DNA from: Desulfolutivibrio sulfoxidireducens
GTDB taxonomy: Bacteria; Desulfobacterota; Desulfovibrionia; Desulfovibrionales; Desulfovibrionaceae
Length of the DNA: 64,000 nucleotides
Assembly: GCF_013376475.1 (NCBI RefSeq)
Contig: NZ_CP045508.1
Location: 372,001-436,000 of the forward strand
Direction: 5' to 3'
Shown: piece after piece, positions 14,210-28,774 of the stretch
How the letters are laid out: each line of letters starts with the position of its first letter
Position numbering within the stretch: position 1 is the first letter of the stretch
The notes under the pieces: model-generated
Database searches by the model: none
Told to the model about the DNA's origin: nothing
The model's input: only the letters and a program-made list of their open reading frames with translations
Position numbers and translations under genes: made by a program

Positions 14210-15286
14210 TCATCTGGCGGCGGTGTGGCCCCTGTTCCTTCCGTTTTTCTTCATGAGGTGGTGGAAAAAGACCTGCACGTAGCGCCCGGAAACCACGTCG
14301 GGCAGGCTGAAGCGTGGCGGCGGGCCGTCGTCCATCTCGGAGGTGAAGGCGAAATAGGCCTGGCGGGAAAGGGTCAGAACGGCCGGTTCCAGGGTCTCCC
14401 ACAACTCGGCCTTGGCCTGCGTCGGGGTTTCGAACGTGCGGCATTGCAGGGGCCGGTAGTCGAAAAGCAGGCAGCTTCCGGCCTCGAGCAGGGGACATGC
14501 GGCCCCGGCGTCGGACAGGCAGAAGTCCCCGGACCCGGCCGGACCGCTTTTTGCGGCCTCCCGTTCGCGTCGGGCCGCGTCCATGGCCCGCTCGATGACC
14601 GCGAGCCGCACCCGGCTTTGCAAGGTGCGGCTTAAGGCGTGCCCCAGGTAGACGGCCTCGATGAAGGACAGCCTGATGGGCGTGGCGCAGCAGCGGGTAT
14701 GCTCCCGGCCGCAACGTGCCCCGGATGGGGCGTACTCCTCGGCCAGGGCGCAGATGCCCTCGTAATCGTAAAAAAACGGCCCCAGATCCACCAGATGCCT
14801 GGACTCCAGGGTGGGTTCGCGGATGGTCAGCCGGCCGCTTTCCCGGCCGTATTTGCGGATGGACCACCACTGGTCGAAGTTGGCGGGCTTGGAGCGCAGG
14901 GGCCTTAATATCCTGGCGGCCATGGCGTGCCCCAGGCCCCGGCGCAGCAGGTAGGCGTTTAAGACCGTGCCCGTGCGCCCGATGCCGTGCCGACAGTGGA
15001 TGAGCACCTTTCGGCCCAGATAGACGGCCTCGTCAAGCCAGGCCAGGGCCTTTTCCAACTCCGGCAGGGGCGGGGCCTCCTCGTCCGGGATGGGCAGATA
15101 GTAGACCTCGAACCCGGCCTGGGCCTCGATGTCGTGCAGGTCGCAGAACTCGGCGCACAGGTTCAATATCGCGTCGATGCCCTGGGCCTTGAGGGAGGCG
15201 AGCTGCTCGTGGGTCATGGGCGCGTGTCCCACGGCCAGATGCGGGGTGACGAAGGTCAGTTCGTAGGCGTGGGCGGGCGGGGACAT
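14210..15286 (-). CDS. Dual-specificity protein phosphatase fused to a YkgJ-type metal-binding domain
   Basis: A 358-aa cytoplasmic fusion. Residues 1-150 are a cysteine-dependent phosphatase domain with the P-loop HCRHGIGRTG (97-106; nucleophile Cys98, Arg104) and a likely general acid in PIPDEEAPPLP. Residues 185-290 carry the YkgJ (zinc/iron-chelating) cysteine pattern: CGREHTRCC (192-200), CPLLEAGSC (264-272) and PLQCR. The gene starts only four bases after the stop of the PEP-synthase-like gene, implying tight co-expression. I infer it removes phosphate from a partner made in the same operon, with activity possibly tuned by bound metal or redox state. Which phospho-residue it hydrolyses is unknown. 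Confidence 0.82.
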   Translation of the reverse strand: MSPPAHAYELTFVTPHLAVGHAPMTHEQLASLKAQGIDAILNLCAEFCDLHDIEAQAGFEVYYLPIPDEEAPPLPELEKALAWLDEAVYLGRKVLIHCRHGIGRTGTVLNAYLLRRGLGHAMAARILRPLRSKPANFDQWWSIRKYGRESGRLTIREPTLESRHLVDLGPFFYDYEGICALAEEYAPSGARCGREHTRCCATPIRLSFIEAVYLGHALSRTLQSRVRLAVIERAMDAARREREAAKSGPAGSGDFCLSDAGAACPLLEAGSCLLFDYRPLQCRTFETPTQAKAELWETLEPAVLTLSRQAYFAFTSEMDDGPPPRFSLPDVVSGRYVQVFFHHLMKKNGRNRGHTAAR

Positions 15287-15290
15287 GGGG

Positions 15291-17828
15291 TCACCGGTCG
15301 GTCTTTGCCAGGAAGTCGTTCACCAGGGCGTCGAGATCGGTGGTTTCCGTCAGGGTGATGTCCATGAGCTTGGTCCGGGCCAGGAGATACCCGAGCATGG
15401 CCAGTCGCTTCAGGACGATGACCTCGCCTTCGCGGGCCAGACGGGCGTCGAGCATGTCCCCCTTGACCGTGACCGCAAAGCCGAAGTGGGTCAGCGCCCT
15501 GGAGATGAATTCGATGCGCTCCAGGCGCTGGCCCAGGCTGCCGCCGCCGCCTTTGAAGCGGAAGTTTATGTAGTTGTTTTTGCCATCGGAGCCGCAGACC
15601 GTGTCCAGGACCGAGAAATGGTAGCCGAAGCGGATCATCAGATGGGCGTAGTTGAGGGAAATGACCGCATAGCTGGCCAGAAGCCGGGTGTCCTTCCCGA
15701 AGATGCCGCCGCTTATGCGGTCGAGCTCCTCCCAGTCGGCATGTTGCACGTCGTCGTCCCAACTGGCATCGGGGGAGGTCAGCCCGGACCATACCGCCCA
15801 CATGGGCGTGCTCTTGATTTCCTCCGGGCCAAGCGTCCCCCGAGTCTGGGCGCTTTCAAAAAGGCCTCCGCCCAGGTCCAGGATGTACATGGTCAGCGGC
15901 AGGTGCGTCTTGAGCTTCTTGGCCGAGGCCAGGCCCAGACCGCCCCGGCCCACCAGGGAGAACATCTCGGACACGGCTTTTTCGTGGGCGAAGCGTACGA
16001 TGTCGTGGATCGAGCGCACCTTCGCCGGGGTAAAGTTCGGGGATTCGGGGTCGGTCAAGGTCAGGCGGGCCACCAGGGGGACGAGCTTTTCCAGGCGGCG
16101 CGCGGCCGGAGTGTCCCGGCTGGGGCGGGATTCCCTTGCCCGCCCGAAAAGACCCTCCACCTTGCCCGGCAGCACGGCCCCGGCGTCGGCGTCCACAGTG
16201 ACCACCTGGCCGTCCTTGATCGCGGAAAATATCTCCGGCCCGAACACCAAAACCGGCAGGCCGAACTCCCGGGCCACCGAGGCGAAATGCCCGGCCCGAC
16301 TGCCCGCCGCCGCGACCACGGCGGCCACCCCGCTTGCCAGACGGGCCAGGGCCGGCGACAGGGTGGGGGTGAGAAGCACCGCCCCCCCCGGCACGGCCGC
16401 GACGTCGATGACCGTCTGGGCGTGTACGGCCCGGCCGCAGGCCACGCCGCCGGACACCAGCCGTCCTCCGGAGAGCAGGGCCTTCGAGAGGTCCAACACC
16501 GTGTCGTCGGACGTCCCGTCGTCGACGTAGGCCCCGAACCCGTCCTCGGGTTCGGCCGCAACCGGGGGCGCCGCCGCGTCCGGGGCATTTGCCGCAATGG
16601 GCCGGCTTTGCAGGATGGACAGTTCGCCGTTTTTGGCCACAGCCCATTCCACGTCCTGGGGGCATCCGAAAAGCTTCTCCAGCCGCAGTCCGATTTCTCC
16701 CAGACGCACGGCATTCTCGTCGGACAGGGCCGGTTCCTCCCGGTTGGCGGTCTCCCGGCCCACCGGGTCGCGGGCCAAAACCCGCGGCGGCGACGTTCGG
16801 GTCAGGGTCACGGATTCGGGGATGATGCCGCCGCCCACCACGGCCGTGCCCAGGCCCCTGGCGGCGTAGACGCCCATGGCCTCCCGGCCGTGCACGGGTC
16901 CACCGGGGTCCAGGGTGTAGAGCACCCCGGCCGAGGCGGCGTCGACCATGGGCATGACCAGCACGGCCATGGAGGTTTCCTCGTCGGACAGGCCGTTTAA
17001 GACGCGGTAGGTCAGGGCCTTGGGGCCGTATTTGGAGGCCAGGACCCGCTTGTAGGCCGAGATCACGTCTTCCGGGCCGACGGAGAGCACGCTTTCGTAC
17101 TGTCCGGCGAACGAGGCCTGGCCGTCCTCGGCCAGGGCCGAACTGCGCACGGACAAAAGCCCGCCGCCGCCCCGGGCCAGTTCCGCGGCCTGGCGGCGAA
17201 GCGGTCCACTGATATCCTCGGGCACGTGGGCGGCAAGGATCATCTGGCGCATCTCCGAGGCCAGCCCGGCCACCTCGTCGGGCCGTGAGAGCACCACCCG
17301 GCGCAGTTTGGCGTCGAGCTTGGGCCGAAGCTCCCCGGCCTCCAGGATGTAGCGGAAGGCCCCGGCCGTGACCACCAGACCCGGGGGGACGGGGATGGAC
17401 GCGTCGTCGCCGGCCCGGCCCAGCGCGGCGGCCTTGCCCCCGGCGATTTCCGGCCGCCCGGCGGCCTCGGCCAGGGTCAGCAGATAGGGCGGCGACATGT
17501 CCGGCAGGGGCACGTCCAGGGCCATGCGCATGTAGAAGGCGATCTTTCGGGCGTATTCGGGGAGGTCCAGGTACCTGGCCGGGGACAACAGCGACAGTTG
17601 CCCCGTGAGATGTTCCATGGCGGCGCTCAGGCGTTTGCACAGCCATGCGACGCGGGCCCAATCGGCCTTTTCGTTGCCGTAATGGATGTCCTCGATCTCG
17701 GCGATGATGTCCATGCACAGGTCGTCGTAGCGCAGAAGGTCCTTGAAGGCGTTGTATTTCTCGCGCAAAAGGACGCCCGGGGCGAAGATCTGGTAGGTCC
17801 AGTGGCGGAAAAGCTGGGTGAGGGACAT
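15291..17828 (-). CDS. PEP-synthase-like phosphotransferase with atypical C-terminal domain (paralogue A)
   Basis: An 845-aa protein. Residues 1-110 are a helical domain. Residues about 115-415 form the ATP-binding module of PEP synthase/pyruvate phosphate dikinase (GGKAAALGRAG, LLSVRSSALAEDG, SFAGQYESVLSV, DVEWAVAKNG, LQSRPI). Residues 460-565 form the swivelling phosphohistidine domain with His514 in GSRAGHFASVAREFGLPVLV. The PEP/pyruvate TIM barrel that should follow is absent; in its place is a 250-residue region with HDIVRFAHEKAVSEMFS, RFGYHFSVLD and NYINFRFKGGGG. ATP-driven His phosphorylation is expected from the family, but the acceptor is unknown. It is fourth in an operon with PhnD, kinase, receiver and phosphatase. 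A paralogue is at 47603-50236. Confidence 0.85.
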   Translation of the reverse strand: MSLTQLFRHWTYQIFAPGVLLREKYNAFKDLLRYDDLCMDIIAEIEDIHYGNEKADWARVAWLCKRLSAAMEHLTGQLSLLSPARYLDLPEYARKIAFYMRMALDVPLPDMSPPYLLTLAEAAGRPEIAGGKAAALGRAGDDASIPVPPGLVVTAGAFRYILEAGELRPKLDAKLRRVVLSRPDEVAGLASEMRQMILAAHVPEDISGPLRRQAAELARGGGGLLSVRSSALAEDGQASFAGQYESVLSVGPEDVISAYKRVLASKYGPKALTYRVLNGLSDEETSMAVLVMPMVDAASAGVLYTLDPGGPVHGREAMGVYAARGLGTAVVGGGIIPESVTLTRTSPPRVLARDPVGRETANREEPALSDENAVRLGEIGLRLEKLFGCPQDVEWAVAKNGELSILQSRPIAANAPDAAAPPVAAEPEDGFGAYVDDGTSDDTVLDLSKALLSGGRLVSGGVACGRAVHAQTVIDVAAVPGGAVLLTPTLSPALARLASGVAAVVAAAGSRAGHFASVAREFGLPVLVFGPEIFSAIKDGQVVTVDADAGAVLPGKVEGLFGRARESRPSRDTPAARRLEKLVPLVARLTLTDPESPNFTPAKVRSIHDIVRFAHEKAVSEMFSLVGRGGLGLASAKKLKTHLPLTMYILDLGGGLFESAQTRGTLGPEEIKSTPMWAVWSGLTSPDASWDDDVQHADWEELDRISGGIFGKDTRLLASYAVISLNYAHLMIRFGYHFSVLDTVCGSDGKNNYINFRFKGGGGSLGQRLERIEFISRALTHFGFAVTVKGDMLDARLAREGEVIVLKRLAMLGYLLARTKLMDITLTETTDLDALVNDFLAKTDR

Positions 17829-17850
17829 GGCGCGCCTTCGTGGGTTCCGG

Positions 17851-18213
17851 TTATCCGTTCTCCAATGCCTCGGCCACCTTGCGTTCCAGTTCGTCCTTGT
17901 CGATGGGCTTGACGCAATAGTCGCAGGCCCCCAGGCGCACGGACTCCCTGGCCGTTTCCAGGGTGGGATAGCCCGTGAGCATGATCACCTTGGTGAGGGG
18001 CGAGCGCTTCTTGATTTCCTCCAGGACCTCGACGCCGGTCATCTTCTTGAGCTTGATGTCCAGGATGGCCATGGCCGGTTTGGTCTTGGCGATGTGCGCC
18101 AGGGCATCCTCCTCCTCGGTGAAGACCGTGACCGCGTGGCCTTTTCGTTCCAGGATGCGTTTGATGAGCACGCCGGCGTCGATGACGTCGTCCAGCACGA
18201 TGATGTCGGCCAT
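17851..18213 (-). CDS. Single-domain response regulator of the PhnD-kinase operon
   Basis: A 120-aa receiver: Asp8/Asp9 acidic pocket, acceptor Asp52 (AILDIKLKKMTG), Thr80 (MLTGYP) and Lys102 (CVKPID). No output domain. The start codon abuts the stop of the kinase gene, so the two are almost certainly a cognate pair. Output must be by protein contact. The next gene, 22 bases on, is the PEP-synthase-like protein, which makes it an obvious candidate target, though this is inference. Confidence 0.9.
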   Translation of the reverse strand: MADIIVLDDVIDAGVLIKRILERKGHAVTVFTEEEDALAHIAKTKPAMAILDIKLKKMTGVEVLEEIKKRSPLTKVIMLTGYPTLETARESVRLGACDYCVKPIDKDELERKVAEALENG

Positions 18214-20298
18214 TTATGTCCTTCCTTTGTCGAGACTCGGTTCGGATTCCAATGTTTCCTCGTGATCCAGGGGGAGGTCCACCACGAAGACCGTGCCCGG
18301 CCCCTTGCCCGTTCCCTGGTTCGGGACGGCCGTTCCCTTCTGGAAAAATCCGGGCGGCACCGGACTTTTGGCGGTGATGGATCCGCCGTGGTCCTCGATG
18401 ATGCCGAACGACACCGAGAGCCCAAGGCCCGTGCCCTGGCCCACGGGTTTGGTGGTGAAAAACGGGTCGAAGATCTTTTGCAGGTTCTCGGCGTCGATGC
18501 CCGCGCCCGTGTCCGCGAACCAGGCGGTCACCTTCTGCCCCGGACTGTCCAGGCGCGAACGAACCAAAAGCAGGCCTCCACCCGGGAGCATGGCGTCGCG
18601 GGCGTTGGTCAAAAGATTGATCCACACCTGCTTGAGCTTCTCCGGGTCGCCGTAGATGATGGGCATGCGCTCGTCCATGTCGGTCATGATGTACACCTTG
18701 TCCAGCCCGAAGGTGTGGCGCACCAGGCTTATGGCCTCCATAAGGGAGTTGTTGAAGCACATCTCCAGCTTTGTGCTGCCGGTTTGCCGGGAAAACCCCA
18801 ACAGATCGGCCACGATCTTGCGGCAGACCTTGGCCTGCTTCTCGATAATTTTCAAGTCCTCATATATTTGGCTGGATTTGTCCACGTCCTCCTGCAAAAG
18901 CTGGGCGTAGCCCAAAATCACGCCCAGGGGGGTGTTTATCTCGTGGGCCACGCCGCCGGCCAGCTTGCCCACGGACTCCATCTTCTGGGACTGGATGAGC
19001 TGTTCCTGAAAGAGCTTGAGCTGGGTCACGTCCCGGGCCGTGCGCAAAAACCCCATGACCCGGCCGTCCTTGTCGAAGACCGGGACGCGCACCACATGCA
19101 GCCACATGTCCCTGTGCCCCCGCTTGGACCGGACCTCACGGTCGAAGGGCAGCCCCGTGCGCAGCACCCGCAGGTCCTCCTCGCGGGTGATTTTGGCCTC
19201 GGACTCGGGAAACAGGTCGAATTCCGTCAGCCCCGCGATCTCTTTGGCCGGACGCCCCACATGCTCGGCATAGGCCTTGTTCACCGCAAGATAGACCAGG
19301 TTGTCCCCGACGAGGCACACGAAGTCCGGGGTGGCGTCGAGGATGGTGCGCATGAGCTGTTCCTGGCGGGAAAGCACGCCCTCGGCCCTCTTGAGTTCCT
19401 CCAGGTGGCTTTTGAGGCTTAAGGCCATGGCGTCGAAGGTCTCGGCCAGGTCCTGGATTTCATCGCCCTTGTTGCGGATGTAGACCGGACAGTTTCGACA
19501 GGACTCCTCCTTGTCCTCAATCTCGGGGTCCGCGCAGTCCGGACACAGGGTCCCGGCCAGATACCAGCAACGCCGGCGGGTGTCGCCGTAGGCCGGGCAG
19601 TGGGTCAGGTCGCATTTCATGATCTCCCAGCAGTTTTCGGCCACCACGGGCCCGGTGCGGATATCCAGGTTGCCCTTGACCACCTCCTCGGCATGTGCCC
19701 GCAGCACCCCGATGCGCCGGGTGACCCGGCGGGCGAAGACGGAACTGATCAGCATGGCCGGGATAAGGGCCGCGCCGGACAGGGTGAAGATGTAAAAGAT
19801 CAGTTTGTTGACGGCAATCTGGGTCTGCGTCCGGGACAACCCCACCCGGGCGGTGCCGAAGCGCGCCCCCACGATCATGATCGGCGCGGCGAAGTCGTAG
19901 ATGTAGTCGTGGCCGGTGAAAAGCAGCCGGATGTTGGCCGCTGTCCCGTCGGCGACCTCGTTGGCGGCCAGAAGCTCCACCGGAAATCCCTGGACAAAGG
20001 TATGCACCAGGACGTTGCCGTCGCGGTCGGTGATGAAGGCGTAGACGTTGTCCTGGACGCCCTTGAGTTCGTCGACCATGTTTTTCAGGCGCAACAGGTC
20101 CATGGCCAGCATGGAATCCGAGGCCCGGGAGGCCAGGTTCTCCGAGAGCACAAGTCCGCGCTTCTTGGTTTCCTCGACCAGGGCCTTTGCGGCCATGCGA
20201 CTGACCATGAAGGCCAACGGCAGGGCGATCAGGGCCACGATGAGCGAGGTGCCGAGATTGATCTTGGTGCGGAACTGGAGCTTGGAGAAAAAGCGCAC
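18214..20298 (-). CDS. Membrane sensor histidine kinase with cysteine-rich insert and PAS domain
   Basis: A 694-aa kinase: transmembrane helix at about 17-33, extracytoplasmic sensor of about 125 residues, second helix at about 168-188, HAMP-like segment interrupted by a cysteine-rich insert (223-270: CWEIMKC, HCPAYG, RCWYLAGTLCPDC, SCRNC), PAS (about 310-425), HisKA with His452 in GGVAHEINTPLGV, and HATPase_c with NLLTNARDAM, DTGAGI and GQGTGLGLSV. The insert has the look of the 'two-CW' type metal or redox module. It starts with GTG overlapping the PhnD stop by one base, so the periplasmic lipoprotein probably feeds it a ligand signal. Confidence 0.9.
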   Translation of the reverse strand: MRFFSKLQFRTKINLGTSLIVALIALPLAFMVSRMAAKALVEETKKRGLVLSENLASRASDSMLAMDLLRLKNMVDELKGVQDNVYAFITDRDGNVLVHTFVQGFPVELLAANEVADGTAANIRLLFTGHDYIYDFAAPIMIVGARFGTARVGLSRTQTQIAVNKLIFYIFTLSGAALIPAMLISSVFARRVTRRIGVLRAHAEEVVKGNLDIRTGPVVAENCWEIMKCDLTHCPAYGDTRRRCWYLAGTLCPDCADPEIEDKEESCRNCPVYIRNKGDEIQDLAETFDAMALSLKSHLEELKRAEGVLSRQEQLMRTILDATPDFVCLVGDNLVYLAVNKAYAEHVGRPAKEIAGLTEFDLFPESEAKITREEDLRVLRTGLPFDREVRSKRGHRDMWLHVVRVPVFDKDGRVMGFLRTARDVTQLKLFQEQLIQSQKMESVGKLAGGVAHEINTPLGVILGYAQLLQEDVDKSSQIYEDLKIIEKQAKVCRKIVADLLGFSRQTGSTKLEMCFNNSLMEAISLVRHTFGLDKVYIMTDMDERMPIIYGDPEKLKQVWINLLTNARDAMLPGGGLLLVRSRLDSPGQKVTAWFADTGAGIDAENLQKIFDPFFTTKPVGQGTGLGLSVSFGIIEDHGGSITAKSPVPPGFFQKGTAVPNQGTGKGPGTVFVVDLPLDHEETLESEPSLDKGRT

Positions 20299-21230
20299 TA
20301 GCGTATCGCCTCCATGGTCTCCAACCCAAGCGTGTCGGCCAACTTCCGCACCGGGTCGTAATCGGCGTCCACGGCCGGGATGATCCCGCGCATGCCCGCG
20401 GTCTCAAGGATGACCGCGTCGTCGGGGCGCCCCATGTCCAGGGCGAACATGGCTGTGGCGATCTTTTCCACCACCGCCGGGTCAAGCCCGGGACGGTGGG
20501 CGTAGACCCAGCCCGGATAGCGCCTGGATTCGGCCAAAACGCGGATCTGGGACAGGTCGATCTTGCCCTCGAGCAAGGGCAGGGTCCCGTCGCGCACCGA
20601 ACCTATGTCGTAGGCCCCGGCGTACACGGCCATGATCACCTTCTCCTGCTTGGCTCCCGGCCCCGGGGCAAAGGCGATTTCCGAGAAATCCTTCCGGGTT
20701 ATGCCGTGGTCGTAAAACTCGCCCAGGGCGTACAGATAGCCGCCGGCCGAGGTCGGGTCCACGGCCAGCCAGCGCTTCCCCCGGCAGTCTTCGAGGTTTT
20801 GGATGTCGCGGTTGTTTTTGCGGGTGATGATCAGGCTGTAAAATTCCGGGGTGCCCGAGGGTTCGACGATCCGGGCGAAGGCCCGGGCTCCGGCCGCGGC
20901 CATGCGGATGTACACGAAGGGGTTGGAGAACGAGATGTCGATCTCGCCGCGCTGCACCATCTTCACATGTTCGTCGAAGGTGTCCGGAAAGATCTGGCGG
21001 ATGGGCAGCCCCGTGGCCTTTTGCAGGTATTCCAGCAGAAGCCGGTGGCGTTCGTAGGACACCGTGTGCGAGTATTGGGGCAGATAGGCGTAGGTCACGG
21101 CCCGCTTGGGCACGACCACGGAGGTCTCCACCCGTCGGGTGAGATCGACCGTGAAGGCGGGTTCGTCGTCGCCGCAGGCGGTGACGAGAAGTAGCAGGAG
21201 GGCGGCCACCAGGGCGGCGGCGTGGCGCAT
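20298..21230 (-). CDS. PhnD-like periplasmic solute-binding lipoprotein
   Basis: A 310-aa lipoprotein: signal MRHAAALVAALLLLLVTACG with the lipidated Cys19, then the phosphate/phosphonate-binding PhnD fold (YLPQYSHTVSYERHRLLLEY, GEIDISFSNPFVYIRMA, WLAVDPTSAGGYLYALGEF, GAYDIGSVRDGTLP). No ABC permease or ATPase is nearby. Instead it overlaps a histidine kinase, an arrangement known for PhnD-type sensory proteins in Deltaproteobacteria, so it likely presents an oxyanion ligand to the kinase rather than importing it. The ligand cannot be read from sequence. The start was chosen at the signal-peptide ATG. Confidence 0.85.
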   Translation of the reverse strand: MRHAAALVAALLLLLVTACGDDEPAFTVDLTRRVETSVVVPKRAVTYAYLPQYSHTVSYERHRLLLEYLQKATGLPIRQIFPDTFDEHVKMVQRGEIDISFSNPFVYIRMAAAGARAFARIVEPSGTPEFYSLIITRKNNRDIQNLEDCRGKRWLAVDPTSAGGYLYALGEFYDHGITRKDFSEIAFAPGPGAKQEKVIMAVYAGAYDIGSVRDGTLPLLEGKIDLSQIRVLAESRRYPGWVYAHRPGLDPAVVEKIATAMFALDMGRPDDAVILETAGMRGIIPAVDADYDPVRKLADTLGLETMEAIR

Positions 21231-21299
21231 GGATGCTCCGTGCGGCGTTAGGCCCGGGGCGCAAGCCAAAAGGCCCGGGCAGGGGGCGCGTCCCCGGGT

Positions 21300-21956
21300 T
21301 CAGGCCGCGTTCGGGTCGGTGGACGGGGCCGCCGCGCCCGGGGGCTGTTGTTTGCCGCTCTGGCCCTTTGGCGGCACTGCCTCGCGCAACACCTCGCTCC
21401 AGGGGATGGGCCTCTCCTCGTCGGCGGGAGGCTGGGCCAGGCCCGGGTCCAGACGCCGCAGCACGGCGACGTGCGGCTTCACCCTGGAATAGGCGATGCG
21501 CACCAGGATATACAGGGGGAAGAACACCGTATTGTAGCCCACGGCATGATCCACCACGGGCAAGGGAATGTCCACCCCCTGGAACCTCCCGGCCAACCAG
21601 CCCAGGGCGAAGGGCACGGGCCAGACGGACACGGAGAACAGCGCCGCCCGGGTGAAAAACGCCTTGCCGAAGGTGTCGTTGGCCAGTCGGTTGGCGGCCT
21701 TGTAGCCCTCCTTGTCGCCCTGGCGCAGGGCGGTGATGGACAGGTTGTGCAGATGCACCATGTCCTTGTTCTGCTTCCGGAAATGCGCCAGGTTGATCCG
21801 GTGGGCCAGGGCCTGGCTTATGTCTCCCACGACCACGGCCAGCAGGGCCAGGACCGTGGACCCCAGATAGAAGCCGATCGCCGGATCGTCGACCAGCCGG
21901 AAAAAAAAGATCAGGCCGGCGTCGAGCAGTCGAGAGATTTCGGAAAGAACATCCAT
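21300..21956 (-). CDS. Three-helix membrane protein with cytoplasmic helical segment, unknown function
   Basis: A 218-aa protein. Hydrophobic segments lie at about residues 8-22, 28-45, 110-130 and 140-160; between them is a charged helical stretch (AHRINLAHFRKQNKDMVHLH, then RQGDKEGYKAANRLAND). The tail is Pro/Ala/Gln-rich and disordered. A helix, long amphipathic hairpin, then helices is reminiscent of the DUF106/EMC3 branch of the Oxa1-YidC superfamily, but the resemblance is by eye only. It lies 69 bases upstream of the PhnD gene on the same strand and may head that operon; the TauE/SafE gene is 270 bases further upstream. Confidence 0.65.
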   Translation of the reverse strand: MDVLSEISRLLDAGLIFFFRLVDDPAIGFYLGSTVLALLAVVVGDISQALAHRINLAHFRKQNKDMVHLHNLSITALRQGDKEGYKAANRLANDTFGKAFFTRAALFSVSVWPVPFALGWLAGRFQGVDIPLPVVDHAVGYNTVFFPLYILVRIAYSRVKPHVAVLRRLDPGLAQPPADEERPIPWSEVLREAVPPKGQSGKQQPPGAAAPSTDPNAA

Positions 21957-22226: not shown

Positions 22227-23378
22227 TTAGCCGAACATCTTGATGTTGAAGAAGCCGCGTAGCGTGTAATCGATGCCCACATAAAAGGCCAAGACGATGA
22301 ACAAGCGCTTGAGCCAGACCTCCGGAATGTACTTGGAAGTCCTGGGCCCCACGACGGAGCCGACCACGACACCCACCAGTTCCAGGCCGATCAGGGTCCA
22401 GTCGATGGGAGTGCCGCCGCCCATGAATTTGGCGATGGAGGTGATCATGCTCACGAGTACAGCCAAGGCCGATGTGCCGGCGGCCAGATACATGGGCAGA
22501 CCGGCCACGCTGGTCAAAAACGGGACCAGGATGAAGCCGCCGCCCACGCCCAGAAAGGCCGCGATGGCGGAAATGACGATGCCGCCGATCAGGGGGATAA
22601 TGGGATTGAAGGAAAATTCCACGCCGTAAAAGGTGAACCTTATTCTGGTCAGGCTCCACAACGTGGTTTTCACGCCCAGGGCCTTGGTGTCCACCTTCTC
22701 CCCCGAGCGTTCCTTCTTGACCGTGCTTTCGAAGGCCTTGACCGCCTCCCTGGCCTTCTTCTTGCTCGCCTGGCCAGCCGGGGTGGTCTCCCAGAGCAGA
22801 TAACAGCCCAGCACCAGGACAAACAGTCCGAAGTAGCCCTGGTACGCGGAGAACGACACCTTACCCGCGGTCAGGCTGACCGAAGCGTAGCTGCCTATGA
22901 TCGAACCTATGCCCAGGGCTACGGCCAAAGGAAGCACCAGGCGGCCCATACGGTAGTAGTTCCAAGAGGAGATGAGCGCGGAAAGACCCGCCAGCCACTG
23001 GTTGGAGGTCCGGATGGAGTCCGTCACCAGTTTGTTCAGTTCAGGGGCCGAGGACTTGAAGCCCTTGGCGTAGGCCCCGAAACCGAAGACCGAAATGTGG
23101 CCCACGCCGGCCATGACCCCGCCAAAGGCGCCGACCGTGGAGAATATCCAGCCCACCCACACGGCCCATACAAAGGCCAGGATCATGTTCACCTGGGGCG
23201 CGCCGTGGATGCCCAGAAAACCCGTCGGCTTGGTGGGATCGATCTGCCCGGCCTCGGCGCCCGAGGGGGCCTTGGCGATGGCGTCGGCCAGACGATCGGC
23301 CCAGGCCGGCTCCAGCCACAGGCACATGACCGCGGCCATGACCCCAAGGACCAGGAATACGTTTTTGGAAAGTCGCAC
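22227..23378 (-). CDS. TauE/SafE family sulfite/organosulfonate-type exporter
   Basis: A 383-aa polytopic protein with a cleavable-looking N-terminus (MRLSKNVFLVLGVMAAVMC...PAWA), about eight to nine helices and the family repeats FSTVGAFGGVMAGVGH and AAFLGVGGGFILVPFLTSVAG; a basic cytoplasmic loop (about 210-250) separates the halves. Members move sulfite, sulfoacetate, taurine-derived or thiosulfate-type anions. The start is decided by aaggagg seven bases before a GTG; an in-frame ATG 27 bases earlier has no ribosome-binding site. In a sulfur-metabolising anaerobe, a sulfur-oxyanion role is plausible. A TTGACA-type promoter candidate lies about 430 bases upstream. Confidence 0.87.
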   Translation of the reverse strand: MRLSKNVFLVLGVMAAVMCLWLEPAWADRLADAIAKAPSGAEAGQIDPTKPTGFLGIHGAPQVNMILAFVWAVWVGWIFSTVGAFGGVMAGVGHISVFGFGAYAKGFKSSAPELNKLVTDSIRTSNQWLAGLSALISSWNYYRMGRLVLPLAVALGIGSIIGSYASVSLTAGKVSFSAYQGYFGLFVLVLGCYLLWETTPAGQASKKKAREAVKAFESTVKKERSGEKVDTKALGVKTTLWSLTRIRFTFYGVEFSFNPIIPLIGGIVISAIAAFLGVGGGFILVPFLTSVAGLPMYLAAGTSALAVLVSMITSIAKFMGGGTPIDWTLIGLELVGVVVGSVVGPRTSKYIPEVWLKRLFIVLAFYVGIDYTLRGFFNIKMFG

Positions 23379-23802
23379 GTCGCTCCTCCTTGCTTGCGCA
23401 TTCATCCGATTTTTTCGTTTTTCGACCGCGTCTCCGGGAACCGCTCCCGGATGCCGCATACCCCGAGGCGGGCATTCCTGCCCGGCCCACCTCTCCATAG
23501 CCATCACAGGCGCCGGATACTCGCCCACGACGTCGGACTCTGCCCCGCCCGACGACTCTACCCGTTCCCCCCCATTCCAACCGGCGCGGATTCCCAGCCG
23601 CGCCGTTCGCCAGGGGCGGACGCACCGTCATCCTCGCGTCATGACCGACTCGGGAAAAGAATGCCCTCTTTTCCTGATGTTCATGATACGGAGACAGGCA
23701 TGTGAGACAACTGCAAAAGATTATCAAAACCAGAAAAAACCAGTTTTCGCCATGCGGCATCGCAAACGGTGCAAGGCGAAAGAAACCTTTTGCAGTATCC
23801 CC

Positions 23803-23831: not shown

Positions 23832-23950
23832 GCCTGTTTTCCACGTTCTTTATTTCTCAATGAGCGGGAATAAAAGCACCTTTTTTTTCAAAGGAGCTTC
23901 AATGAGATTGTTCATTTTTGCACAAGCGGGCCATCGCCACCCGGAGTGCC

Positions 23951-24131
23951 GGGGCTGCCGCCCCGGACCTGCGAACCGGGGCTGCCGCCCCGGACCTGCG
24001 AACCGGGGCTGCCGCCCCGGACCTGCGAACCGGGGCTGCCGCCCCGGACCTGCGAACCGGGGCTGCCGCCCCGGACCTGCGAACCGGGGCTGCCGCCCCG
24101 GACCTGCGAACCGGGGCTGCCGCCCCAGACC
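23951..24131. repeat. 27-bp direct tandem repeat array (six full units plus a partial seventh)
   Basis: Units begin at 23951, 23978, 24005, 24032, 24059, 24086 and 24113; the last diverges after GGGGCTGCCGCCCC. The first six are identical. Each contains the small palindrome GGGGC-TGCC-GCCCC followed by GGACCTGCGAACC. The period is a multiple of three, so open frames pass through on both strands, but there are no spacers of unique sequence and no gene context. The same core palindrome is repeated in the opposite orientation at 47390-47463. Confidence 0.92.
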
Positions 24132-24406: not shown

Positions 24407-24907
24407 TTAGCGGCGCATGAGCATGCGCTTGGCGTAGTCTTCGCGGGTCGTGGCGGAGGCCTCGTTGGGCCTCACGAAGGAGAGGGCGTGGGCGGTGCAG
24501 CCGGACACGCAGGCCGGGTTTTTCCCGGCATCGATGCGGTCGCGGCAGAAGTCGCATTTCATGACCCGGCCGGTGGAATCGTTCCACTGGGGGATCTGCC
24601 AGGGGCAGGCCCGGATGCAGGCCTTGCATCCCACGCACAAATCATCGTTGAGGTAGACGATGCCGTCCTCGCGCCGGATCATGGCCCCGGTGGGGCAGGC
24701 GGCGACGCACCAGGGACGTTCGCAGTGGAAGCAGGGCATGAACAGGTTGAGCATGCGCGGCTTGCCTTTCTGGAGAACGGGGCCCACGGAGACCAGTTTC
24801 CCCAGCCGGGCGTCCGGTGGGGCCTGGTTTTTCATTTGGCAGTGCACCTCACAGGCATGACAGGATATGCAACGTTCTTGATCGAGGACGATATGGTATT
24901 TGCTCAT
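24407..24907 (-). CDS. Four-cluster ferredoxin-type electron-transfer subunit (PsrB/HycB-like)
   Basis: A 166-aa protein with four Cys clusters: CISCHACEVHC (13-23), CFHCERPWCVAACP (about 59-72), CVGCKACIRACP (about 91-102), and CDFCRDRI...CVSGC (about 118-138). This is the pattern of the beta subunits of molybdopterin oxidoreductases (PhsB, PsrB, DmsB, HycB), which wire an active site to a membrane partner or quinone. No membrane anchor or molybdoenzyme directly follows. It is the last gene of the nuoABCDHI operon, 50 bases after nuoI, and a molybdopterin oxidoreductase is encoded divergently at the other end. I infer it bridges that enzyme, or another donor, to the complex I module. Confidence 0.88.
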   Translation of the reverse strand: MSKYHIVLDQERCISCHACEVHCQMKNQAPPDARLGKLVSVGPVLQKGKPRMLNLFMPCFHCERPWCVAACPTGAMIRREDGIVYLNDDLCVGCKACIRACPWQIPQWNDSTGRVMKCDFCRDRIDAGKNPACVSGCTAHALSFVRPNEASATTREDYAKRMLMRR

Positions 24908-24957
24908 GCGGAGGCTCCTGATCGGCGTGTGGGAGCCAGCGCGGATTCACGGAAGCC

Positions 24958-25512
24958 TTATGGCGCGGCTTTGTTGCCCTTTTTTGCAGCCTGGCTTTTG
25001 AGCCGGGCCAGGAGGTCGATCATGAAATCCTCGCGGCTTTCGCCGATGAGATAGACGTTTTGGGAGAACCGCAGGGACTTGGCCGGGCAGGCGCGTTCGC
25101 ACTGACCGCACAGGCTGCACTTGGAATAGTCCAGGAAAAACTGTAACGGGGCCTTGGATTTTTCCGGGGCTGCGGTTTTTTCGGTTTTGGGGATGAGCTT
25201 CCCGGCGACCACACCCGCGGCCGGGGCATCGGCCTTGGGCTTGGGGGTCTTGGGAGGGCCGACCACAGTCAGACAGTTCGACGGGCAGGCGTCGGCGCAG
25301 GCCCCGCAGGCAACGCAGCGGGGGGTGAACGGATCGTCATCCTTGGCCACGAGTTCCACGTGTCCCCGGTAGGTGGACATGTTGTCCACGGACTGCCAGG
25401 GGTAGATCACGGTGATCGTCGGCTTGACGAAATTTTTTCCGGTGATGCCAAGCCCGATGAGCAGGCTTTTGGCGTAATCCCAGACTTCCTTGCAGGACTC
25501 GGAGACGCTCAT
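24958..25512 (-). CDS. nuoI: NADH-quinone oxidoreductase-type subunit I (2x[4Fe-4S])
   Basis: A 184-aa peripheral-arm subunit. The two cluster motifs CVACGACADACP and CSLCGQCERACP supply N6a/N6b-type clusters that pass electrons to subunit B. An Ala/Pro/Lys-rich insertion of about 45 residues separates them, longer than in standard NuoI. The N-terminal part (LLIGLGITGKNFVKPTITVIYP) matches the membrane-contacting stretch of the family. It lies three bases after nuoH and 50 bases before the four-cluster ferredoxin gene. Confidence 0.9.
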   Translation of the reverse strand: MSVSESCKEVWDYAKSLLIGLGITGKNFVKPTITVIYPWQSVDNMSTYRGHVELVAKDDDPFTPRCVACGACADACPSNCLTVVGPPKTPKPKADAPAAGVVAGKLIPKTEKTAAPEKSKAPLQFFLDYSKCSLCGQCERACPAKSLRFSQNVYLIGESREDFMIDLLARLKSQAAKKGNKAAP

Positions 25513-25515
25513 GGA

Positions 25516-26493
25516 CTATCCTCCCAGGCGCACGACCACGGCCGTGCCGGCCAAAACGATCAGGGCAATCGGGGTGAGCCGCTTCCAGCTTAAGTTGAGG
25601 AGTTGGTCGAAGCGGACCCGGGGATAGGTCCAGCGCAACCAGATGATCAAAAGCAGAATGGCGTAGAGCTTCAGCAGAAACCACCAGACGCCGGAGGCGA
25701 TCGGCCCTTGGTAGCCGCCCAGGAACAGGGCGGTGGCCACGCCGCTGACCACGATCATGTTGGCGTATTCGGCCAGAAAGAACAGGCCGAAGCCCATGCC
25801 GGAATATTCGGTGTGGAACCCGGCGGTGAGCTCGGATTCGGCCTCGGGCAGATCGAAGGGGGCGCGGTTGGTCTCGGCCACGGAGCAAATCAAAAAGATG
25901 ATGAAGGCCAAGGGGTTTTGTATGGCGTACCACTGCCACGGCCAGGGGCCCTGGGCCTCGGTCACGGCGTAGAGGTCGAGCGAGCCGGCCATGAAGGCCA
26001 CGGCCAGGACGGACAAAAGAAGCGGGACCTCGTAGGCCACGGACTGGGCCACGGCCCGGGCCGCGCCCAAAACGCCCCACTTGTTGCCCGAGCCCCATCC
26101 GGCCAGACACAGGGCAATGACGTTGACCCCGGAGAAGGCCAGGATGAGCACCAGCCCGAGGTTTATGTCGATGGCCTTGAGGTTGGCGTCGAAGGGCAGG
26201 GGCAGCAGACACAGGGCCACGGGCATGAAGGCGAGCAGGGGTGCGGCCCAGAAAAGGACGCGGTCGCCCTTGAAAGGGGTCAGAAGCTGTTTGCCAACCA
26301 GTTTGAGGGCGTCCACCAGGGGTTGCAGCAGGCCCTGGGGACCGACATGCAGGGGACCGGGACGGCGTTGCACATATCCGGCCACCTTGCGTTCGGCGTA
26401 CACCAAAAGCAGGCCGTTTAAGCCCACGAAGGCGAAGATGGCGGCCAGGGCCAGGATCAGACGCACCAGCGGATCGGCGAGGCTTATGGTCAT
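25516..26493 (-). CDS. nuoH: NADH-quinone oxidoreductase-type subunit H
   Basis: A 325-aa protein with eight predicted helices, normal for NuoH. Family motifs seen are VYAERKVAGYVQRRPGPLHV (residues about 31-50), the acidic quinone-channel loop SVAETNRAPFDLPEAESEL, and FLAEYAN. NuoH forms the quinone chamber entrance and couples redox to proton movement. The stop codon lies three bases before nuoI; its start overlaps the nuoD stop by four bases (ATGA). Confidence 0.95.
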   Translation of the reverse strand: MTISLADPLVRLILALAAIFAFVGLNGLLLVYAERKVAGYVQRRPGPLHVGPQGLLQPLVDALKLVGKQLLTPFKGDRVLFWAAPLLAFMPVALCLLPLPFDANLKAIDINLGLVLILAFSGVNVIALCLAGWGSGNKWGVLGAARAVAQSVAYEVPLLLSVLAVAFMAGSLDLYAVTEAQGPWPWQWYAIQNPLAFIIFLICSVAETNRAPFDLPEAESELTAGFHTEYSGMGFGLFFLAEYANMIVVSGVATALFLGGYQGPIASGVWWFLLKLYAILLLIIWLRWTYPRVRFDQLLNLSWKRLTPIALIVLAGTAVVVRLGG

Positions 26494-27683
26494 CGGTCGA
26501 TCTCCGGAATGACGAGGTCGAGACTGCCCAGGATGGACACGGCGTCGGCCAGAAGGGTTCCCTGGGCCAGTTCCGCGAAAAGGCTCAGGTTGGAGAAGCC
26601 GGGGGCGCGCAGCTTGACCCGGTAGGGAGTGGGGCCGCCGTCGCTGACCACGGTGATCAATATCTTGCCCCGGGCGCCTTCCACGGCGAAGCAGGCCTCG
26701 CCCTTGGGCGGTTTGATTTTGCGCGGCACCTTGCCCAGGTGCGGTCCCTCGGGCAGGGAATCCAGGGCCTGTTCCACGATGGACATGCTCTCCTCGATTT
26801 CGGCCAGCCGGACCAGGTAGCGGGCCATGGCGTCACAGGCGTTTTCCGTGGGGATGCGGAAGTCGAAGCGGTCGTAGACCGAATAGGGTTCGGCCCGGCG
26901 CACGTCATAGGGCTGGCCAGAGCCGCGCACCACCGGGCCGGTGGCCCCGTAGCGCCGGATCATATCCAGGTCCAGGACGCCGATGTCCACGCACCGCCCG
27001 AGCAGGATGCCGTTGTCCGTGACCAGGCCCCGATACATGGGCAGCCGGGAGCGCAGGGTGGCGATGAACTCGCGGGTCTTGGGGGCGAACTCCGGGGGCA
27101 GGTCCATGGTCACGCCGCCGAAGGCGAACGACGAATAGGTCAGCCTGGAGCCGGTGACCATCTGCAGGATGTCCAGGATGCGTTCCCGGTCGTCGAAGGC
27201 GTACATGATGGGGGTGAACGCCCCGAGATCCAGAAGATAGGCCCCCCACCACAAAAGATGGGAGCTTATGCGGTTGAGCTCGCAGGTGATGACCCGGATG
27301 TATTCGGCGCGCTCGGGGACCGCGATCCCGGCCAGGCGTTCCACCGCGCCGACATAGGCCCAGTTCCAGGCCAGGGCGTGCAGGTAGTCCACCCGGCCCA
27401 TGTTGGGGATGAACTGGGCATAGGTGCGGTTTTCGGCCATCCACTCGTGCATGCGGTGGATGTACCCGAGGACCGGCTCGGCCCGGACGATATATTCCCC
27501 GTCGAGTTCCAGGATCACCCGGAGCACCCCGTGGGTGGAGGGGTGCTGGGGGCCCATGTTGATGATCATCCGTTCGCCCGAGGGATCGGGCTCGAACCGG
27601 GAGGAATAGGAATCCCCCCACAGTCCGGGATCGACATGGCCCATGGTCGCGGCGGCCGCGGCGGCGGCGGTGTGTTCGCTCAT
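26490..27683 (-). CDS. nuoD: NADH-quinone oxidoreductase-type subunit D
   Basis: A 397-aa quinone-site subunit. Clear motifs are INMGPQHPSTHGVLRV, GYIHRMHEWMAENRTYAQ and ELNRISSHLLW. The CxxC pairs that bind NiFe in the related hydrogenases are absent, so this is complex I-type rather than hydrogenase. The N-terminus has an extra Ala-rich tail (SEHTAAAAAAATMGHVDPG). The gene follows nuoC by six bases. Confidence 0.96.
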   Translation of the reverse strand: MSEHTAAAAAAATMGHVDPGLWGDSYSSRFEPDPSGERMIINMGPQHPSTHGVLRVILELDGEYIVRAEPVLGYIHRMHEWMAENRTYAQFIPNMGRVDYLHALAWNWAYVGAVERLAGIAVPERAEYIRVITCELNRISSHLLWWGAYLLDLGAFTPIMYAFDDRERILDILQMVTGSRLTYSSFAFGGVTMDLPPEFAPKTREFIATLRSRLPMYRGLVTDNGILLGRCVDIGVLDLDMIRRYGATGPVVRGSGQPYDVRRAEPYSVYDRFDFRIPTENACDAMARYLVRLAEIEESMSIVEQALDSLPEGPHLGKVPRKIKPPKGEACFAVEGARGKILITVVSDGGPTPYRVKLRAPGFSNLSLFAELAQGTLLADAVSILGSLDLVIPEIDR

Positions 27684-27689
27684 GATCGG

Positions 27690-28229
27690 CTACCCCGCGG
27701 CGGCCTCGGTGGCCGTGGTCTTGGTTGGTTTCTCGGCCTTTTCGGCCCCGGGCGCCACGTCGCTGTCCACCAGGTATTCCATGGGCATGACGTCCGTGCG
27801 ACTCTTGCGGGTCTTGTCCGTCTTGACCAGGGGGGGCGGGGTGTCGTCGTCCGGTAAAAGCAGGGCGTTTAAGTTGGGATGGCCGGAGAAGACCACGCCG
27901 TGGAAGTCGTGACACTCGCGCTCATGCCAGTTGGCGCCGGTGAAGACCTCGGAGACCGTGGGGATGACGGCGTCGTCGTGGGCCACGGCCACCCGAAGCG
28001 TAATGCGGCCGGGCTCGACCCAGTGGCCGAAATGGTACTTGACCACGAAGCCCTCGGTCACGTCGCAGGCGGACAGGTCCTCCAGGTGGTATCCCTGGTC
28101 CCACAGGACGTGACAGGCATCCACGATGTGGTCACGCGCCACCAGAAGGCTCAGGACCTGTCCGGTCTTGGCCGGGTCCAGGGGGGTGACGGCCTCGGTC
28201 CGTATCTTGGAAATCCATGCGGGGATCAT
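27690..28229 (-). CDS. nuoC: NADH-quinone oxidoreductase-type subunit C
   Basis: A 179-aa protein with the 30-kDa subunit motif [20 protein letters not shown], followed by a [11 protein letters not shown] tail and a charged C-terminus. The start ATG overlaps the nuoB stop (ATGA) and has ggagg upstream; the longer frame before it lies inside nuoB. C and D are separate genes here, unlike the fused enterobacterial NuoCD. Confidence 0.93.
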
Positions 28230-28774
28230 GCGACCTCCGCCTTTCCCGCGGAAATATCCGCGGGCACGGGCCACCAGCGGCGGCCGCTGATTTTGTGCTG
28301 GATCGCGAACAGGCCTTCCAGGAGTCCTTCCGGGCGGGGGGGGCATCCGGGGACGTAGACGTCCACGGGGATGAGCTTGTCCACGCCTTCCACGACGGCG
28401 TACTGGCCCTCACACTTGAACGGTCCGCCCGAAATGGCGCAGTTGCCAAGGGCCATGACCCACTTGGGCGCGGGCATCTGCTCGTAGAGCCGGACCACGG
28501 CCGGGGCCATCTTGCGGTTCACGGTGCCGGCCACGATCATGAGATCCGCCTGGCGCGGCGAGGGCCGAAACACCTCGGCCCCGAACCGGGCGATGTCGAA
28601 GCGGGCCATGCCCACGACCATCATCTCGATGGCGCAGCAGGCCAGTCCGAAGGTCATGGGCCAGATGGACATGGCTCGGCACACGTCCACGATGCGCTGC
28701 ACCGCGGGGGTGGAGATCGGCGCCGGCTGGATGCCGGTTACCGCCGGGGCGAGATTTGAATCCTGCGGGGCCAT
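28226..28774 (-). CDS. nuoB: NADH-quinone oxidoreductase-type subunit B (N2 cluster)
   Basis: A 182-aa protein with the N2 ligands: the tandem Cys pair in [11 protein letters not shown], the Cys in [12 protein letters not shown] and the Cys in [26 protein letters not shown] is also diagnostic. It transfers electrons to quinone at the D/B/H junction. The start follows aagggag and lies inside the 3' end of nuoA (37-base overlap). Confidence 0.96.

Follow-up and report, generated by a model that had tools for sequence, protein, structure and literature searches.

A dikinase-phosphatase pair in the Desulfolutivibrio sulfoxidireducens counterpart of a published nitrate cluster

Introduction

We describe a set of seven minus-strand genes in a 64,000-nucleotide stretch of the Desulfolutivibrio sulfoxidireducens genome (contig NZ_CP045508.1, positions 372,001 to 436,000; hereafter the window). 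The set encodes a TSUP/TauE transporter, a membrane-type protein (p261), a PhnD-type solute-binding protein, a histidine kinase, a stand-alone receiver, a phosphoenolpyruvate (PEP)-synthase-like protein of 845 amino acids (aa), here called the dikinase, and a 358-aa protein that combines a dual-specificity phosphatase with a cysteine cluster. It matches the nitrate cluster published as DVU0251-DVU0245 / Dde_0597-Dde_0605, and our survey supports a matched, near-obligate pairing of its dikinase with its phosphatase. The cluster itself is already known; for its mechanism we propose two-component sensing joined to a transport system that is phosphorylated reversibly, the putative kinase being the dikinase. 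Oil fields are dosed with nitrate against sulfide production, and loss of the cluster lets sulfate reducers grow despite nitrate (PMC4001038). The phenotype has been known since 2014, and the pairing, the gene fusions and the transporter-lodged dikinase copies reported here make of it a specific, testable switch which, if right, would also offer a way into the PEP-synthase-like proteins of sulfate reducers, a large and multi-copy family.

Gene content of the locus

An earlier note on this DNA, made from its letters alone, had described an operon of five genes, from the PhnD-type protein to the phosphatase. The five minus-strand open reading frames (ORFs) and their spacings (a 1-base overlap, then 0, 22 and 4 bases) are exactly as it gave them, and Pfam confirms the broad domain identities it had assigned. 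The operon is longer than was thought, with p261 and, before it, the TSUP/TauE transporter continuing the set upstream of the PhnD gene (Table 1); both are recurrent neighbours elsewhere, and it is these, in our view the likeliest effectors, that the five-gene reading had missed. The PhnD ORF runs to a TTG at 21269, the ATG at 21230 being the likelier start, and its LVTAC motif is presumably lipobox-like. For p261, conservation and an upstream GGGAG make the ATG at 21956 the likely start.

Table 1. Genes and features of the seven-gene set (window positions)
Feature	Position	Strand	Evidence and counterpart
TSUP/TauE transporter	22227-23528	-	PF01925 2.5e-27; first gene of the set; DVU0251
p261	21300-21956 (ORF to 22085)	-	helical membrane-type protein; DVU0250
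PhnD-type solute-binding protein	20298-21230	-	PF12974 1.5e-60; DVU0249
Histidine kinase	18214-20298 (GTG start)	-	sCache_3_2, HAMP, PAS_4, HisKA, HATPase_c; DVU0248
Kinase Cys-rich linker, residues 223-270	19489-19632	-	six cysteines kept in at least 97% of 71 rows
Stand-alone receiver	17851-18213	-	Response_reg PF00072 6.2e-23; phospho-acceptor D52 (87/87 aligned rows); DVU0247
PEP-synthase-like dikinase, 845 aa	15291-17828	-	PPDK_N 3e-66; PEP-utilizers 2.3e-13; DVU0246
Dikinase PPDK_N ATP-grasp, residues 127-418	16575-17450	-	Pfam
Dikinase His514 codon	16287-16289	-	in mobile domain 16179-16391; H514 in 104/104 rows
Dikinase C-terminal domain, residues ~575-845	15294-16106	-	without known family
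Phosphatase and Cys-cluster protein, 358 aa	14210-15286	-	DSPc 3.9e-14; DVU0245
Phosphatase P-loop HCRHGIGR, residues 97-104	14975-14998	-	C98 in 96/97 rows, R104 in 97/97 rows
Six-cysteine YkgJ-like cluster (C192, C199, C200, C264, C272, C282)	14441-14713	-	kept in 96-97/97 rows

Genomes and loci surveyed

The survey was based on 199 genomes of the source organism's class; the source genome is a single contig of 4.16 Mb. Dikinase orthologues were called at E<=1e-58, a line that we set at the first genome occurring twice, and the presence of the phosphatase and of TSUP at E<=1e-15 and E<=1e-100, respectively. Dikinase paralogues checked for a nearby phosphatase numbered 38, among the matches listed. 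The locus set combined the best 80 of 400 matches, among which the nearest named relative is a Desulfovibrionaceae metagenome-assembled genome (L078), with 40 hand-picked loci (one to three per genus, two of them picked as paralogues). For neighbour counts, these 120 dikinase-match loci were reduced to 110 by removing duplicates and seven paralogue loci, including L150, whose best match is a paralogue, and then to 69 by removing those with short flanks. Alignments for residue conservation excluded 17 loci and length outliers, and retained duplicate strains and the window.

Pairing of dikinase and phosphatase

A dikinase orthologue is present in 112 of the 199 genomes and a phosphatase match in 120, and all 112 dikinase genomes carry both. 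In 109 of them the phosphatase follows the dikinase downstream within 5 kb, strand included, at a distance of at most 351 bases in 108 and of 3012 bases in one (median gap between matches, 44); in the other three (G030, G061, G183) it lies elsewhere. Eight genomes hold a phosphatase match and no listed dikinase orthologue, five of these matches being weak (E about 1e-29 to 1e-34), and 79 hold neither gene. A simple estimate, made on related genomes and without a formal test, yields about 0.08 expected neighbouring pairs in 112 genomes against the 109 observed; the grouping is not due to chance. Among the matches listed, a phosphatase match is close to 2 of the 38 paralogues.

In three loci (L122, L136, L137) the two proteins are fused in a single open frame of 1252-1255 aa that keeps both active-site motifs intact; L107, whose mid-region reads like a frame change, was excluded as a further fusion. 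The catalytic residues of dikinase, phosphatase and receiver are essentially invariant (Table 1). The matched pair that the earlier note had supposed is thus upheld by neighbourhood and fusion alike. Instead of lying mostly apart from each other and from the PhnD and kinase genes, the two sit in company: across the 69 non-redundant loci, the genes found near the dikinase are the phosphatase (63), the receiver (55), the kinase and PhnD (50 each), TSUP (37) and p261 (36), with 31 loci holding all six partners and 17 all except TSUP and p261.

The 358-aa protein has the HCxxGxxR P-loop and matches the DSPc profile, together with models of related phosphatases. For its C-terminal half, the YkgJ label of the earlier note is weak by profile: the whole protein gives no Pfam match to YkgJ at E<=0.01, and the C-terminal half scores 16.4 bits against the PF03692 cut-off of 23. 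The six cysteines are nevertheless conserved.

The fusions also bear on a reading in which the substrate of the phosphatase is the dikinase, whose phospho-enzyme it would reset, or the receiver, and not a transporter-linked target. A covalent link between the two enzymes in three loci speaks for it; we know of no Cys-based dual-specificity enzyme that is an efficient phosphatase of phospho-His or acyl phosphates, and consider this reading quite improbable.

The dikinase and its C-terminal domain

The 845-aa protein combines a PPDK_N ATP-grasp domain with a mobile phospho-His domain in which the catalytic histidine is present, an architecture common to PEP synthase (PpsA) and pyruvate phosphate dikinase. 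Unlike these, it has no Pfam match to the PEP/pyruvate-binding TIM barrel (PEP_utilizers_C), and its N- and C-terminal domains are without known family; the dikinase is therefore not a PEP synthase, and the PEP-synthase likeness of the earlier note holds for the ATP-grasp and phospho-His domains and not for the C-terminal part. Rifampicin phosphotransferase (RPH) and the PigC/RedH ligases employ the same two domains with other substrates. The dikinase scores against the RPH and PigC profiles, far below both family cut-offs (190.9 bits against 999 for RPH).

Residues ~575-845 return no Pfam match up to E 10 and no PDB sequence relative at a useful score. Their structural model has a predicted local distance difference test score (pLDDT) of 86.5, and its top fold match, 2plg, was rejected as a relative for being too weak (E 0.017). 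This domain is found at E<=1e-5 in 173 of the 199 genomes, as a large multi-copy family in sulfate reducers. A plasmid search gave 16 records that match the ATP-grasp or ATP-grasp/His part only. Over the 69-locus set, the dikinase has a mean identity of 44.7% to the window protein.

The source genome holds four proteins with a C-terminal domain of this type. A second dikinase paralogue with the same domain (877 aa) lies in the window at 47603-50236 on the plus strand, and elsewhere in the genome (L183 5150-8355, in the C1:162362-163270 region) a PEP-synthase-like gene is apparently split, with two open frames and one in-frame TGA.

Correspondence with the nitrate cluster

The published cluster comprises a TauE-like permease, a hypothetical protein, a PhnD-type protein, a kinase, a receiver, a pyruvate-phosphate-dikinase-like protein and a dual-specificity phosphatase (PMC4001038), and the window holds the seven functions in the same order, a correspondence by annotation and order and not by sequence alignment. 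What the earlier note took for an unrecognised pathway is thus a published system. DVU0251 is also named in PMC3431258, and a DUF169 gene, listed in the G20 cluster, occurs upstream of TSUP in L071 and L099. The sigma54 TSUP operon DVU2957-DVU2967 was discarded as a counterpart, since it includes an enhancer-binding protein missing here and DVU0251-DVU0245 matches gene by gene.

In Desulfovibrio vulgaris, insertions in TSUP, p261, the receiver and the dikinase are reported to allow normal growth in 100 mM nitrate, while insertion and deletion mutants of the phosphatase are still inhibited (PMC4001038). The dikinase insertion can be polar at most on the phosphatase, whose loss gives no resistance, and therefore dikinase loss itself would relieve the sensitivity. 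Under nitrate, the mutant in the dikinase is similar to the one in the transporter and behaves oppositely to the phosphatase mutant, which agrees with the antagonism suggested by the earlier note. Nitrate resistance upon loss has been published for G20 as well as for D. vulgaris (PMC4001038). Thiosulfate makes G20 mutants mildly sick, according to unpublished data cited in PMC4001038, and a leaky thiosulfate transporter was proposed by Korte et al. 2014 (PMC4001038). The parts of PMC4001038 available to us contain neither a kinase-phosphatase mechanism nor evidence from distribution or fusions, and the open-licence PMC papers searched offered no mechanism for the cluster.

The sensor module

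A HisKA/HATPase kinase and a receiver with a conserved aspartate make up a two-component system by domain content. In the H-box of the kinase, HEINTP, the residues H, E, N, T and P are kept in at least 97% of 71 rows, and its Cys-rich stretch is, we presume, the one that goes by the name 'two-CW'. By gene adjacency, the window kinase and the window receiver are candidate partners in phosphotransfer. The receiver has the highest mean identity to the window among the seven proteins (73.8% over 55 loci), which suggests a constrained partner surface, and no output domain is found on it by Pfam. TtrS-type sensors likewise tie PhnD-like periplasmic sensing to a histidine kinase; the TtrS profile match is weak (22.2 bits against a cut-off of 750), and here, in contrast to TtrS, PhnD and the kinase are encoded separately, next to a receiver without an output domain.

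The transporter, p261 and their dikinase-linked copies

TSUP matches PF01925 with 96.5 bits over residues 119-419 of 433. An orthologue is found in 109 of the 112 dikinase genomes against 33 of the 87 others; among the 69 loci, 37 have it no more than 9 kb from the dikinase, and 14 of 17 class genomes without TSUP beside the dikinase have it elsewhere. In 18 of 20 additional TSUP loci p261 adjoins it. p261 itself has no Pfam match up to E 10, and its structural model reaches a pLDDT of 91.3. The idea of an Oxa1/EMC3-type insertase, drawn from the order of its helices, gained no support from fold comparison: no solved fold matches at E<=0.001, and among the best 50 of 298 fold matches at E<=10 none is named as Oxa1/DUF106-like.

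Dikinase-family genes also occur with TSUP-p261 apart from the phosphatase. L104-L106 (Desulforhopalus, Desulfopila) carry a complete dikinase directly after TSUP-p261 and nearly end to end with it, and the fetched flanks contain no orthologue of the sensor genes or the phosphatase. These loci were rejected as a minimal phosphatase-less system because the phosphatase is encoded elsewhere in all three genomes (G210-G212); their dikinase is a transporter-linked copy and not a phosphatase-free system. G210 and G211 have two dikinase copies each, one with TSUP-p261 and a more distant one beside the phosphatase; a good PhnD match is present elsewhere in two of the three genomes, and other kinase-like genes lie close to the cluster in L105 and L106.

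In six further genomes (L048, L185, L186, L187, L192, L193) the paralogue that shares a cluster with TSUP-p261 lacks the phospho-His domain, the L193 case being based on tblastn evidence only; L184, weaker, was left uncounted. The paralogues compared in detail keep their N- and C-terminal parts. In those of L185-L187 and L192 much of the ATP-grasp is missing as well; that of L048 (15693-17678) keeps more, and PhnD and kinase genes stand between it and TSUP-p261. Four of these six genomes also contain the full dikinase-phosphatase pair (loci L048, L072, L073, L112). Such paralogues are possibly dead adaptors. The His motif is missing in 5 of 169 dikinase-family ORFs, one being L150, a 393-aa C-terminal piece beside a phosphatase that was set aside as a likely fragment.

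The L104-L106 copies, the His-less paralogues and the likeness of the D. vulgaris mutants tie the dikinase family to TSUP/p261 and not just to the sensor. They also bear on a metabolic alternative, in which it is the imported solute, or one of its metabolites, that the dikinase phosphorylates, the phosphatase dephosphorylates an intermediate, and nitrate resistance arises indirectly. That the small-molecule-acting RPH and prodigiosin ligase PigC profiles score against the dikinase is in keeping with such a module, as are the 16 invariant columns of its C-terminal domain across 77 sequences and the presence of the core without TSUP in some lineages. Yet the retention of His-less paralogues in TSUP-p261 clusters suggests a binding and not a catalytic role there, and nitrate is no ordinary phosphoryl acceptor, while loss of the dikinase is reported to end nitrate inhibition (PMC4001038); we judge the metabolic module unlikely, though worth serious thought.

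As to the substrate, two of 11 TSUP regions without the dikinase orthologue (L192-L202) have a molybdoenzyme directly after TSUP-p261. That of L195 (6578-8752) has thiosulfate reductase PhsA as its best match, at 424 bits and below the cut-off of 694; that of L198 (7405-9582) reads nearly like it and is also followed by an Fe-S protein. Together with the reported sickness of G20 on thiosulfate, these two regions hint at thiosulfate.

A proposed switch and the evidence weighed

We propose that TSUP and p261 would together form an importer in the inner membrane for thiosulfate or a similar sulfur oxyanion, through which nitrate may also enter. The dikinase would charge His514 with a phosphoryl group from ATP and transfer it to a target that its C-terminal domain binds, most simply TSUP/p261 or an attached component; the phosphorylated target would render the importer active, and the co-encoded phosphatase would reverse its phosphorylation. 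The PhnD protein and the sCache-bearing kinase, with the lone receiver, would report an external ligand and bias the dikinase. As a whole, a dikinase/phosphatase switch that gates a sulfur-oxyanion importer, with thiosulfate as the suspected substrate and nitrate leaking through, is our preferred reading, held tentatively as somewhat short of probable. It is built on the gene content, conservation and fusions shown here and on the mutant phenotypes of Korte et al. 2014 (PMC4001038); from these we infer the phosphorylated target, the direction of the effect, the contact between receiver and dikinase and the thiosulfate substrate.

Two known systems offer partial precedents. Plant glucan water dikinase with SEX4/LSF2 likewise sets a PPDK-type dikinase against a dual-specificity phosphatase; unlike the window operon, it acts on carbohydrate and involves no two-component system. 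PTS (phosphotransferase system) enzyme I and the nitrogen PTS control transporters through a phospho-His relay that is driven by PEP and hands phosphate to HPr/NPr, neither of which was found by Pfam in the seven window genes. In its fullest form, the proposal would have a PEP-synthase-type dikinase turned into an ATP-driven transporter-gating kinase, opposed by a dedicated phosphatase, steered by the receiver and assisted by catalytically dead paralogues as transporter-bound adaptors. This would resemble the way in which the PTS controls transporters, with ATP as the phosphate source; the fullest form strikes us as rather doubtful.

Several observations weigh against the proposed switch. The usual substrates of dual-specificity phosphatases are phosphorylated Ser/Thr/Tyr or small molecules, and not phospho-His. 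The models of p261 and of the dikinase C-terminal domain match no solved fold at E<=0.001, the phosphatase lies apart from the transporter-linked dikinase of L104-L106, and kinship among the surveyed genomes leaves the counts non-independent. Among 11 genomes reached via named loci, mostly non-Desulfovibrionales, TSUP is good in three (one of these apparently a class genome counted again), weak in one and missing in seven; the core often stands without TSUP outside Desulfovibrionales, so that TSUP cannot be the sole target. Pooled nitrate fitness in D. vulgaris is reported as -6.04 for the phosphatase and -5.82 for p261 (DVU0250), the latter in conflict with the isolated nitrate-resistant mutant, and in G20 as +2.08 and +2.88, so that the G20 phosphatase mutant, unlike that of D. 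vulgaris, gains fitness (PMC4001038). The receiver and p261 insertion phenotypes may be polar, and the open-licence PMC literature, as far as it was available to us, yielded no phosphorylation assay.

The sensor branch adds to these points, and the strict chain from ligand through kinase and receiver to dikinase that the earlier note had drawn is a hypothesis. In D. vulgaris, whose cluster still makes it nitrate-sensitive, the kinase DVU0248 carries a pseudogene annotation and is therefore unlikely to be essential for the phenotype; the lone receiver is missing near the dikinase in 14 of the 69 loci, and in two of these, L039 and L054, a sigma54-type regulator takes its place upstream of the dikinase. 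This replacement lends weight to a further alternative, as do the sigma54-like promoter matches before TSUP in four of 56 TSUP loci (L104, L105, L106, L131), a count made with no chance control. Here the pair would act on a regulator, be it the receiver or another, and the cells would resist nitrate through loss of transporter expression. In the window, though, the receiver lacks an output domain, none of the seven genes encodes a DNA-binding regulator by Pfam, and no sigma54-like site is found in the 350 bases upstream of TSUP; we regard control through gene expression as improbable.

Surrounding sequence

Across the window, the count of the sigma54 pattern does not exceed chance expectation, and scans for sigma70 promoters and terminators gave nothing decisive. 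In the gap between TSUP and the next upstream genes, a 27-bp unit is repeated 6.8 times with 99% match (23949-24131). Beyond it, on the minus strand (24407-28346), lie genes for two ferredoxin-type Fe-S proteins and complex-I-like subunits (NADHdh, 49 kDa, 30 kDa), which we take to be of the Ech/Hyf hydrogenase type. An Fe-S protein resembling these is encoded directly upstream of TSUP in L068 and L090.

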